From: Tanticharoenia sakaeratensis NBRC 103193
GTDB taxonomy: Bacteria; Pseudomonadota; Alphaproteobacteria; Acetobacterales; Acetobacteraceae
Assembly: GCF_000963885.1 (NCBI RefSeq)
Contig: NZ_BALE01000017.1
Span: 62,001-126,000, forward strand
Direction: 5' to 3'
DNA: 64,000 bases
Below the pieces are notes generated by a model. The model was not told the DNA's origin, searched no databases, and saw only the letters and a list, made by a program, of their open reading frames with translations. The position numbers and the translations under genes were made by a program. Of this stretch, positions 58,274 through 64,000 are shown one piece after another (the first letter of the stretch is position 1; every line of letters starts with the position of its first letter).

Positions 58274-60754
58274 ATGTCCCGGAAAGTGTGTTCCGTTCTG
58301 ACGAGCGCAGTGCTGGTCTCGACAGCGCTCAGCCCCTGCGTGGTTCTCGCGCAGTCGGCGTCTGATGCAGCGGGTCATGCTTCCAAAGCTCACGGTTCTC
58401 GCCATGTTGCGCCCCATCGGCATGCGATGCATCCCGCGGCGATCCCTGCGAGAGGGACTGCAGTGCCTGCATCCACCACGGTCGCGCCCCCCGTGCAGCC
58501 CCATGCAAAGGCGGAAAATGTCGATGTCATCAGCGCGCGTCGCAATCTGACCATCGGTGGCGGCCTGCTGCGGCGCGTCGACGTGCCGCGCAACATCCAG
58601 ACCGTCAGCCAGGACTATATCGCCAAGCAGTCACCGACCCAGAACGTCGCAAACCTTCTGTCCATGATGCCCAGCGTCAACGTCATGCCGGGCGATGCGG
58701 CAGGCATCAACAGTTCCGGAATTCAGGTCCGTGGACTGTCGAGTAATGATATCGGCTGGGTGATGGACGGCGCGCCGACCCTGTCTCCAGGCGCCGGATC
58801 CTATCAGGCCGAGATGCTGGACACGGAGAACATGCAGGAGATCGCGATCGCGCCCGGATCGGCCGCGACTGACGACCCGGTGACCAGTTCGCTGGCCGGC
58901 ACGATCTACACGAAAATGCGCGATCCGACCGAGCATGCAGGCGCCCAGACCGACTTCACCTATGGCTCGTTCAACACCTATCGCGGATTTTTCCGTGGCG
59001 ACACCGGTGAGATCGGTCATTCGGGCGTCCGCGCCTTTGCCTCAGTTTCCGAAGCGAAAGAGCAGCACTGGTTCGGCGTCGGGGAGCAGGGCAAGATCCA
59101 CTCGGACGCAAAAATCCTTAAGACATTTGCCAATGGCAGTTCGATCGCTTTCGAACAGGTCCTGAATATTTCGAGTTCCGGATATTACTACAACCCCACG
59201 CTGTCCGTCTGGCGGCAGTCGAAATGGGGCAGCCCCGACGCGACCTACGGCGGCGTCACCGATGGAAGCTTCTACAAGCTGAACACGGCCGATCCGTTCT
59301 ATTCCGGCACTGTGCTGATGCCCATGAAGTTCGTGCTGCCTCACAACCTGACGCTGACCGACACGCCCTATTTCTGGTACGGCTATGGATGGTCGCTGGG
59401 CGGGACGACGGTACAACAGGGCAGCACCTATGCCGGTGCCTCGACGGTGGATGTCAACCTCGCCCAGGGGACGGGTGCATCGTCGGTCCCGGCCGGAACG
59501 TCGGTGCTCGTGGACAGCGCAGGCTACGGCCTGACCTATATCGGTGGAAACAACCTCAAGCTGAACTGGCACACCGCGCATAACGATCTGTATGCCGGGT
59601 ACTGGTACGAAAACTACAATCTCAACGAGAAGGATCCGGTCGGCATTGTCGATCAGTCGTCGGGCAATCCCTTCGACATCACGCAGGGCCACAACCAGTA
59701 TACCGTGGCAGGCGGCGGCAAATGGTATGCCGCCGACTATTTTCTGCACTACCAGCTCAATGCGATCTATCTTGGCGACAGCTTTTCCTGGTTCGACAAT
59801 CGCCTGAATATATCGGCAGGTTTCAAGGATGTGATGGTCACGCGTTCCGCTGACAACTATCTTGCGGGCTCGACCCCGCATCAGGGCGTCAGTGAGAACG
59901 TGCCGCTTCCGACGCTCGGTATCCGATACAACTTCGACCGGCGAAACCAGCTCTACGTGCTGGGTGAGGGCGATTATCGTCAGCCCTACATGGGCAGCAC
60001 GCTGGATGCCTATTCGATTTCCTCCGGCGCATTGGTCAACGGCAGTTCAACGCCGAAATCCGAATACGCGATCAAGGAAGAACTGGGATACCGCTACAAC
60101 GGAGACCGCCTGATCGCGTCCGTCATTTTCTACAACATGAACATCGTCAACCGGCTTTTGACGCTCAATACCTACCAGAACGGCGTCCAGATCAGTCGGA
60201 CGTTGAACGCCGGCGGACAGACCAGCCGTGGCGTGGATGTCCAGCTTGCCACGACGCCATTCTGGGGACGGTTCACGCCCTATGTCACTTTCGCATATCT
60301 GAATGCGCGGCAGGACAACAACGTCGAGGCCGCCACGACGACCGACCAGACGGACTACCTGCCGACGGCCGGAAAAACGCAGATCCTGAGCCCGCATTAC
60401 CAGGCGGGTCTGGGGCTCACCTATGACGACGGCCATTTCTTCGGCAATCTCAACGTGCGCTATGTGGGCACGCAATACGCGACCCTCATGAACGACGAGA
60501 CCGTGCCGGGATACGTGACGGATTCCATGACGTTCGGCTACCGCCGTGCACGGCTGGGCTTCCTCAAGACGCCGAAAATCCAGGTCTCGCTCAACAATCT
60601 CAACGGATCGACGCAGAGGATCGGTGTCTACGGCTATACGAACAACGCCCGCGCGACACGCGGCGTATTCGGTGGCACGATCGCCGGCAGCAGCCCGACC
60701 TACTACATCGATCCCGGGTTCGCGGCTCTGATGACGGTCAGCGTCGGCCTGTAA
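58274..60754 (+). CDS. TonB-dependent outer-membrane receptor
   Basis: Outer-membrane beta-barrel receptor of 826 residues driven by TonB. A signal peptide (cleavage near A-Q-S) is followed by a His/Ala/Pro-rich stretch, a TonB-box-like E-N-V-D-V-I-S segment near residue 82, the plug domain (R-N-I-Q-T-V-S, G-I-Q-V-R-G-L near 160), and a barrel with many aromatic-rich strands. The ligand is unknown; ferric siderophores are common. The last residues V-S-V-G-L lack the usual terminal aromatic. GGAG lies seven bases before the ATG. Confidence 0.92.
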   Translation: MSRKVCSVLTSAVLVSTALSPCVVLAQSASDAAGHASKAHGSRHVAPHRHAMHPAAIPARGTAVPASTTVAPPVQPHAKAENVDVISARRNLTIGGGLLRRVDVPRNIQTVSQDYIAKQSPTQNVANLLSMMPSVNVMPGDAAGINSSGIQVRGLSSNDIGWVMDGAPTLSPGAGSYQAEMLDTENMQEIAIAPGSAATDDPVTSSLAGTIYTKMRDPTEHAGAQTDFTYGSFNTYRGFFRGDTGEIGHSGVRAFASVSEAKEQHWFGVGEQGKIHSDAKILKTFANGSSIAFEQVLNISSSGYYYNPTLSVWRQSKWGSPDATYGGVTDGSFYKLNTADPFYSGTVLMPMKFVLPHNLTLTDTPYFWYGYGWSLGGTTVQQGSTYAGASTVDVNLAQGTGASSVPAGTSVLVDSAGYGLTYIGGNNLKLNWHTAHNDLYAGYWYENYNLNEKDPVGIVDQSSGNPFDITQGHNQYTVAGGGKWYAADYFLHYQLNAIYLGDSFSWFDNRLNISAGFKDVMVTRSADNYLAGSTPHQGVSENVPLPTLGIRYNFDRRNQLYVLGEGDYRQPYMGSTLDAYSISSGALVNGSSTPKSEYAIKEELGYRYNGDRLIASVIFYNMNIVNRLLTLNTYQNGVQISRTLNAGGQTSRGVDVQLATTPFWGRFTPYVTFAYLNARQDNNVEAATTTDQTDYLPTAGKTQILSPHYQAGLGLTYDDGHFFGNLNVRYVGTQYATLMNDETVPGYVTDSMTFGYRRARLGFLKTPKIQVSLNNLNGSTQRIGVYGYTNNARATRGVFGGTIAGSSPTYYIDPGFAALMTVSVGL

Positions 60755-60762
60755 CTCTTATC

Positions 60763-61716
60763 CTATGGCAGACGGGCGATCCGCTCTGCCAGCAGGTCAT
60801 AGAACCCGTCCGTATCGGCGTTTCTCAGATAGAACACGTTGGGCGGACGGTCGGTGACATGCCAGTAGTCGACGCAGGTCGCGCCCCGCGTGAACGTGCC
60901 CGCACATTCGATGCCGACATGGCATTCCCGACCCGTGAAGAGATCAGGACGCAGCAGCCATGCGATCGTGCATGGATCGTGAAGTGGCGCGCCCGACCCG
61001 CCATATTTCGCAAGGTCGAACCGTTCGGAAAAGCCGAGCATTCCAGCCACAACCTGTCCGGCCCTGTTGCCGAGTTCTGCAAAGCGTCGCAGCCGCGCCG
61101 GTGTCGTAAGGCACTGATGTGTCACGTCCAGCGGCACCATCGTGAGCGGGATTCCGGCGCGCAGGACAATGTCCGCGGCTTCCGGGTCGACATAGACGTT
61201 GAATTCCGCGCTCGGGGTGATGTTGCCTCCTTCGAAACAGGCGCCGCCCATCCACACGATGTCCCGGATACGCGAGAATGCGTCGGGTGCCCTGGTGAAC
61301 AGGTTCGCGCTGTTGGTCATCGGTCCCAGCACAACCAATGTGACCGAACCCGGGTCCCGCTCGCGCAATGTCCGCGCAAGAAAACCCAAGGCATCGGTCG
61401 AGGCGGGCGCCCGGGACGGGGCAGGGAGATCGGACCCGTCCAGCCCTGTCGGGCCGTGGACATGTGCGCCCGTGACAGGTGCACGGGCTACGAGCGGACG
61501 GTCGGCGCCGACATGGACGGCGATGTCGGCCCGCTCGGCCAGATCGAGAATGCGGATGGCGTTGGCGGTCGTGTGCGGGAGCGGCACGTTGCCTGCGACA
61601 GTCGTGATGCCTGCCACGTCGAGTTCGGGAGATGCGAGGGCAAGGAGAATTGCGACGGCATCGTCCTGGCCTGGATCGGTGTCGATGACGATCGTCCGGG
61701 GCGCGGTGTCGGTCAT
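60763..61716 (-). CDS. nucleoside hydrolase (IunH/Rih family)
   Basis: Hydrolase of 317 residues splitting nucleosides into base and ribose. The Ca-binding signature D-T-D-P-G-Q-D-D lies near residue 11. V-V-L-G-P-M-T-N, M-G-G near residue 154, N-x-Y-x-D-P-E-A near 170 and the late H-D-P-C segment complete the active site. The base preference cannot be read. The ATG at 61716 begins the conserved region; ribosome signal is weak. It converges with the TonB receptor gene. Confidence 0.93.
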   Translation of the reverse strand: MTDTAPRTIVIDTDPGQDDAVAILLALASPELDVAGITTVAGNVPLPHTTANAIRILDLAERADIAVHVGADRPLVARAPVTGAHVHGPTGLDGSDLPAPSRAPASTDALGFLARTLRERDPGSVTLVVLGPMTNSANLFTRAPDAFSRIRDIVWMGGACFEGGNITPSAEFNVYVDPEAADIVLRAGIPLTMVPLDVTHQCLTTPARLRRFAELGNRAGQVVAGMLGFSERFDLAKYGGSGAPLHDPCTIAWLLRPDLFTGRECHVGIECAGTFTRGATCVDYWHVTDRPPNVFYLRNADTDGFYDLLAERIARLP

Positions 61717-62094
61717 GCCAGGGCTTTCGGCTGTGAGAGCGATCCGGATTCGTATCATGACAAATGCCTCCGCCGCATCATCGATACGTTATCGGTTCGA
61801 TCACATCCGGACAGGGGCAGACGGATTTCCGGGTTCTTTTCGTGACGCCCGATGGTGCTTTCGTTTTCAAAGCGCATGTCGCGTCGGGTCATGGAGTATG
61901 CGGCCGCGTCGTGGTCAGTTGCCCGGAGGAGGTGGTTGCCGACCCGCATAGTCGGCTGCGACACGGCGATGCCGACGGCTGGGGATGACGCGAGCAGACG
62001 CGGTACCGACTGTGCGTTTTCAGTTCCGGATGTGGGCGTGCGCGCGTTCTGCGGCGGAGCGCATGACGATGAGGAGATCGCGAACAGCTACCCC
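61717..62094. other. 378-base intergenic region, nothing recognised
   Basis: The gap lies between the start of the nucleoside hydrolase and the end of the TGA-interrupted gene. Possible short ORFs on both strands have no ribosome site and no recognised domain. Confidence 0.45.
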
Positions 62095-63033
62095 TTACCG
62101 GATTTCGCTCGTCACTTCATGGGTGATTTCCGCCTGCTCGTCATGCGCTGCCAGATCAGCATCCGCGCCGTAGAGGGCTTGCAATGTCGCAAGGTCGAAC
62201 GACGTCAGCTGCCTGGGAGCCCCCTGCTGAAACCGATCCTGATTGTACAGGCTCATGATCGATCCTTTGTAGAAAACATCACCGAGTTTCGGAGACGTCA
62301 GACTCGCGAAGGCAATGTAGTCGGCAAGTTGTCCCCAGGTCGGCCCGGCGGATCGGGGAAGGTCGACGATCATGATGAGGTAGGTTGCGCGCAGCTGTGT
62401 CCGCTTGTGACCAAACACGCCTCTAATGCTGTCCGACAGGACCTTGGCCGGTCCAGAAGCCTGGGATCCGCGCGACAGTATTGCAATCACGCCGTCCGCC
62501 GGATCGGTGCTGATTGCGCGATACCATCGGACCGGTCGGTCCTCGCGTAACTGCCTGATGTCGGATTCGTCCGGTAGTGCATAGTCATCGCGCGTCAGGC
62601 CGCTGGAATCAGTGCCTCTTCCGAGGAAGGGATCGTCGTGGAGCACGGTATTGAAGGTCTGCGTGCCGTTCTGAGTAAAGAAGATGAGCAGGTTCTGTTT
62701 CGAGCAGTCTGCTTCCTGTCCCTTGAACGCCAATCTGGACAAGCGATTAGTGTGACTGGCCACGATGCTGTAAAACGGTTCGCGCAGTCCTGACACAACA
62801 GGACAGGGAGGAGCACCTCAACGAGAAACCTGCTCGTACCAAGGAGCCGTCGTCACCTGTTCCACGGCGTGACGAACTGAATCCGGGCTGACGCCATGAA
62901 CAGTGATCGTTTCACCCGACGGGTTCGAGGGCCCGGCTGGCGTCATATGAGCGTTGCTGGCGGCACGGGCGGTCGAAGACGTCAGGATCGCGAGAAGCAA
63001 CGCCCTGAACAGGTTGATCTCATTACGGAGCAT
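62095..63033 (-). pseudogene. secreted hypothetical protein gene interrupted by one in-frame TGA
   Basis: One reading frame of 313 codons contains a single TGA at 62818-62820, codon 72. The first part has GGAGG nine bases before the ATG at 63033, a signal peptide ending near A-R-A, and ends W-Y-E-Q-V-S-R. After the TGA it continues G-A-P-P-C-P-V-V-S-G-L, with C-x(n)-N-L-L-I-F-F-T, and later L-A-D-Y-I-A-F and L-Q-A-L-Y segments. From memory of alphaproteobacterial exported proteins with a W-x4-C-P-x-V-x-G-L motif, the TGA falls where a Trp (TGG) is expected. Readings: recent nonsense mutation, sequencing error, or read-through. Confidence 0.75.
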
Positions 63034-63944
63034 GGCCCTATACCTCCGACACACCGTTTATTATCATAGTGTGTCAGGATTCACCTTGGTGTGCCAGAGA
63101 ATTTCATACAATTTCCAGTGGGCGCACCGTTCAGACAGGAATGGTGGACGTGAACCGTCGGTCCTCTGACCCGGCGCGCGACGGGTGGCCACTGGGAGCG
63201 TATGTGACATCGGCGAAAAAATGGATGCCTATGCCATAAGTGCACTGCGTTATCTGCTCGATAGGCCGCCAGATATTGGGCGTCAGAGGACCGCTGGCCG
63301 GCTCGCTGTTTTTGTTGAACGCCCACCGACGGACGACGTGCGGGATAGCTCGAAGCTCTGATTCACGCTCAGCGGGCCGTGTGATGGCTTGCCACCGCCT
63401 ATCCGATAGGCTCATGGCTGCCTTCATTATCGGCCGTACGCTTTGCTCGACACCCAAGAACGGAACGCGGGCGACCTGCAACGGTGCAGACACAAGCGCG
63501 GATCGACGCTGCACGCGTCTGTTGATGCGCCCGCTTCATCGACGAGCATTGCGCATCATGTCGGCCAATCTTGATGATTGCACGGAGATTGACCGCCTCG
63601 GCGCCGTTATCCGCAATGTAGCCGGCCAGAACGCCGGACCAGCATGCGCCGGGCAGGGCTATATCGAGATCAGGCCGGCCACTTCAGCGGACAGGCCAAG
63701 GATTGCGAGCACTACGCGTCGATGTCCGCCGGGACATACGCCATCATCTCGGGTTGTCCCTTGCTCGACCTTACAATTCCGCAATTACCTCCAGGCGGTA
63801 CAGGCGTGCCTGCTTCGCGATGACTGCGGCGGAATTCCAGAAATTGGGTTGTCGGGCACCCCGGCTCAGCATTTGAAATGTGACGCTTGCAGCACTGCGT
63901 CAAACCGATAGGGTGTCGGGACCGTTCCGATGGAGGATCGATCT
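63034..63944. other. 911-base degenerate region without a supported gene
   Basis: This stretch is AT-richer than the rest of the window, especially at 63050-63120. Readings on both strands are Arg/Cys/Ser-rich and lack ribosome sites. On the minus strand a frame near 63580-63650 weakly recalls the A-D-x(n)-L-R-A-I-I segment of IS5-type transposases, and 63131-63514 has a weak W-x-P-x-E pattern. Neither is good enough to call. It looks like decayed DNA at the edge of a less conserved region. Confidence 0.4.
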
Positions 63945-64000
63945 GTGATGCCGGACATGTCTTGTCATCCTGCCTCGCCCCGGTTGCTCCGTGCGTCCCG
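63945..64000 (+). CDS. possible 5' end of a gene running off the window
   Basis: GGAGG at 63932-63936 lies eight bases before GTG 63945 and eleven before the adjacent in-frame ATG 63948. The frame stays open to the window end, giving about 18 residues (M-M-P-D-M-S-C-H-P). Too short to identify. Confidence 0.3.
   Translation, partial: MMPDMSCHPASPRLLRAS

Follow-up and report, generated by a model that had tools for sequence, protein, structure and literature searches.

A probable fresh nonsense pseudogene for a patchily distributed exported protein in Tanticharoenia sakaeratensis

In a 64,000-nucleotide stretch of the Tanticharoenia sakaeratensis NBRC 103193 genome (the whole of the DNA analysed, here called the window), a gene for a putative secreted protein is crossed by a single in-frame TGA, which raises the question of whether the gene has been inactivated, whether the base is wrong in the record, or whether ribosomes pass the stop. 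The whole gene (62095..63033, minus strand) runs from an ATG at 63033 to a terminal stop at 62095 as a frame of 312 codons, with the TGA at codon 72 (62818..62820, minus strand) as the sole internal stop, while the remaining five frames over 62095-63033 contain 4 to 16 stops each. Codons 1-71, upstream of the TGA (62821..63033, minus strand), are translated into a segment with a signal-peptide-like N-terminus (approximately residues 1-24, called by eye, without a predictor), inside which a helix is predicted at residues 3-18 in the AlphaFold model. A Shine-Dalgarno-like GGAGG (63043..63047, minus strand) can be read nine bases upstream of the ATG. The conserved part of the protein is encoded by codons 73-312, which together with the terminal stop occupy 62095..62817 (minus strand); it comprises exactly 240 residues beginning G-A-P-P-C-P-V-V-S-G-L, in which the four residues G-A-P-P separate the TGA from C-P-V-V-S-G-L. 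The sequence-only reading had described one TGA splitting an otherwise intact gene, two halves in the same frame, a ribosome site and signal peptide before the stop, about 240 residues after it, and a C-P-x-V-x-G-L motif four residues further on; all of this was confirmed. The source genome is a 3.5-Mb draft in 94 contigs, in which the gene is single-copy.

Among 397 Acetobacteraceae genomes searched, the protein query matched 21 and a profile matched 22, counts that include the window's own genome (20 and 21 others, respectively, some with copies that are themselves damaged), and the profile search placed the gene in 10 of the 102 genera sampled. A class-level profile search of 385 genomes yielded additional members in four other families. 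Since homologues in the Acetobacteraceae and in other Alphaproteobacteria span the stop, a real family covers both halves; the refuting outcomes set out beforehand, a lack of homologues across both halves or relatives that naturally end or start at the break, did not occur. The closest relative, L004 (intact, in G022), is 48% identical over residues 11-309, and a named relative among the matches is Gluconacetobacter diazotrophicus PA1 5. Gene neighbours vary from genome to genome, and a plasmid search returned distant relatives only, on one Sphingomonas and one Gluconobacter plasmid. Outside the Acetobacteraceae, members frequently stand in tandem pairs or triples (L084-L102; for example, G671 C11:20232-23181 and G458 C3:67805-69591), an arrangement that suggests paralogous subunits or duplicates.

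The codon taken by the TGA belongs to a strongly conserved position. In an alignment of 18 Acetobacteraceae proteins, column 72 is Trp in 17 of 17 intact relatives and is one of ten columns invariant among them, and across 34 relatives it holds Trp in 29, Phe in three, Tyr in one and Met in one, so that the check proposed in the sequence-only reading, for Trp at codon 72 in relatives, came out positive. The window copy keeps nine of the nine other invariant residues, with none lost from the conserved part after the stop. It also keeps 45 of the 50 columns that are identical in its four closest relatives; the same leave-out test applied in turn to intact L004 and L008 likewise gave 45 of 50. 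In a maximum-likelihood tree the window branch measures 0.64, against 0.52, 0.76 and 0.79 in intact clade neighbours, and since this lies within the range of the intact clade, the window copy shows no accelerated evolution. A second stop or frameshift is absent from the gene. With the remainder undecayed and free of further lesions, the lesion is either recent or an error of the record, and the absence of further decay is also what would be expected of a record error or of an active gene with read-through.

The standing of TGA in this genome bears on the last of these possibilities. The release factor 2 gene prfB (L039:1400-1700) is intact and carries the classical in-frame TGA programmed frameshift site (CTT-TGA-C downstream of AGGAGG), no UCA anticodon was found among the 42 tRNA genes found and typed in the genome, and tRNA-Trp is canonical (anticodon CCA, 5-bp anticodon stem, A9 and G24); TGA is therefore a true stop here. 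A code in which TGA is read as Trp (as in NCBI table 4) was rejected, given an intact RF2, no tRNA-Trp(UCA) and a tRNA-Trp that is not prone to read-through. Recoding as a selenoprotein was also rejected, as no tRNA-Sec was found in the genome: in the search with RF01852 the best match, and the sole one above the cut-off, is tRNA-Ser(TGA) according to ARAGORN, and the other places listed fall on ordinary tRNAs.

Leaky or programmed read-through, in which some ribosomes would insert Trp at the UGA by means of near-cognate tRNA-Trp and so make the full protein, would agree with the conservation of the frame past the stop. Natural misreading of UGA inserts Trp, the residue that relatives have at this site. 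Several results stand against it, however: the TGA is common to no relative, all of which have a codon for Trp or another residue there, predominantly Trp; RF2 is intact; and RNA folding 3' of the TGA is no better than that of shuffled sequences (z -0.55), with no unusual structure. UGA read-through in E. coli, both background and tRNA-dependent, has been discussed together with the tRNA-Trp features linked to it (PMC13092985), and with CCA, a five-pair stem, A9 and G24 the tRNA-Trp of this genome is without those features. Read-through of this kind is accordingly judged very unlikely, and that the ordinary tRNA-Trp reads the UGA usefully, restoring Trp with gene output reduced or dependent on conditions, is if anything less likely.

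The main rival to a real inactivation is a sequencing or assembly error, by which the gene would be intact in the living strain and the TGA would exist in the record only. Only one base is affected in a gene that is otherwise undecayed, and a base in a 94-contig draft could be wrong; on the other hand, the site (position about 124,818) lies deep within a 206-kb contig. A coding-potential scan of 82 kb for other stops flanked by strong coding signal found none, which argues that the record is not rich in errors, although the same scan scores the window gene negative as well (its composition is atypical), would have missed it, and is therefore a weak control. Relatives with independent lesions also weigh against an error. 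Broken copies are present in five of the 22 Acetobacteraceae genomes with the gene, through different lesions and with the window's TGA copy included: in the G401 copy (L007) two adjacent TAG codons interrupt a frame that is conserved elsewhere, the G238 copy (Gluconacetobacter diazotrophicus PA1 5, NC_011365.1; L002/L024/L009) has lost one base from a run of A and also has Arg at the conserved Trp column 72, and the G282 and G008 copies are split pieces, as judged from search output only. Some of these lesions may be sequencing errors. Because the lesions are independent, true loss looks common in the family, and repeated breakage together with differing neighbour genes makes the gene look accessory and dispensable. 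A base error at the window's TGA is considered unlikely, though with a chance that deserves to be kept in mind.

The gene of G270 is intact and shares 99% DNA identity with that of G238. Relative to L008, an intact gene 99% identical to it, the NC_011365.1 orthologue lacks one base and carries three substitutions, each of which changes an amino acid and one of which hits the conserved Trp codon; the cause could be fresh decay of the gene or mistakes in the record.

The surroundings of the window gene were also searched. Upstream of the gene, a stretch of about 830 bases (63100-63930) lies where the G+C content of the window is lowest, and coding content could be recognised in none of its frames. 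Nor was a decayed gene identified within approximately 900 bases upstream; Rfam gave no match over 60000-64000, and promoter and terminator scans performed no better than chance.

Finally, the break could have produced a split gene, the second half of which would be re-initiated at a GTG at 62796 as a separate, non-exported protein, and an open frame of 233 codons does start there. This GTG is not preceded by a Shine-Dalgarno-like sequence, however, the product would be without the signal peptide, the Trp72 site and Cys77, and a two-gene design is seen in no relative, the split copies of G238, G282 and G008 looking damaged; the arrangement is scarcely credible. Caution is nevertheless called for, since an automatic annotation might enter the second half as a protein in its own right, starting at GTG 62796.

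A fresh nonsense pseudogene, that is, a recently inactivated chromosomal gene for a patchily distributed exported protein, is the probable explanation of the locus. Among the readings offered beforehand (pseudogene, assembly error or read-through) it is the best supported, with a base error possible and dedicated read-through unsupported (TGA unshared, RF2 intact, no UCA tRNA). The ancestral gene would have encoded a 312-residue exported protein belonging to an Alphaproteobacterial family with a patchy distribution in the Acetobacteraceae, and a stop would then have arisen at the family-invariant Trp codon. With a stop at this position, translation should end after 71 residues, and the product would consist of the signal peptide and about 47 further residues, without nearly all of the conserved fold. 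If the base is taken as real, the gene would be inactive, its loss presumably being tolerated because the protein is dispensable. As a single gene the case is of little weight, nonsense pseudogenes being common; what is modestly useful is that a broad family of exported Alphaproteobacterial proteins, without a significant Pfam or NCBIfam match, has been described, and that breakage of its copies in the Acetobacteraceae has been seen repeatedly.

The window protein itself (P0001) has no significant match in either Pfam or NCBIfam. Sub-threshold matches to DUF2927 (PF11150) were obtained for four of the 18 aligned proteins (best E 0.045) and not for P0001; membership was rejected, as the family cut-off was not reached, and a literature search gave no mention of DUF2927. 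The AlphaFold model (mean pLDDT 79.6) has a metalloprotease (metzincin)-like predicted fold spanning residues 56-291, and the 50 VIA-align matches listed are MMP-type domains throughout, karilysin included. Foldseek gave nothing significant, and with a best E of only 0.46 homology to metzincins is not established; a PDB sequence-profile search returned chance matches only. Membership of the Matrixin/metzincin proteases was rejected, since the HExxHxxGxxH zinc site is absent. A degenerate zincin family, with a zincin-like fold but no zinc site, would be a reasonable guess on the basis of the model.

Among known systems, the catalytic domains of matrix metalloproteinases (metzincin fold) resemble the window model structurally, with VIA-align Z values that reach 8.9 over 137-144 residues (values around 8 can be common), whereas the HExxH zinc motif is absent from the 35 family proteins (P0001 and 34 relatives). 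The orthologue of Gluconacetobacter diazotrophicus PA1 5 is disrupted, like the window copy, but by its one-base deletion and with Arg at the Trp column, where the window copy is broken by the TGA. L004, from the same uncharacterised Alphaproteobacterial secreted family, has the W-x4-C, VRW, LADY and DxxxLxxLY elements in common with the window copy, and is intact, whereas the window copy has TGA in place of the conserved Trp.
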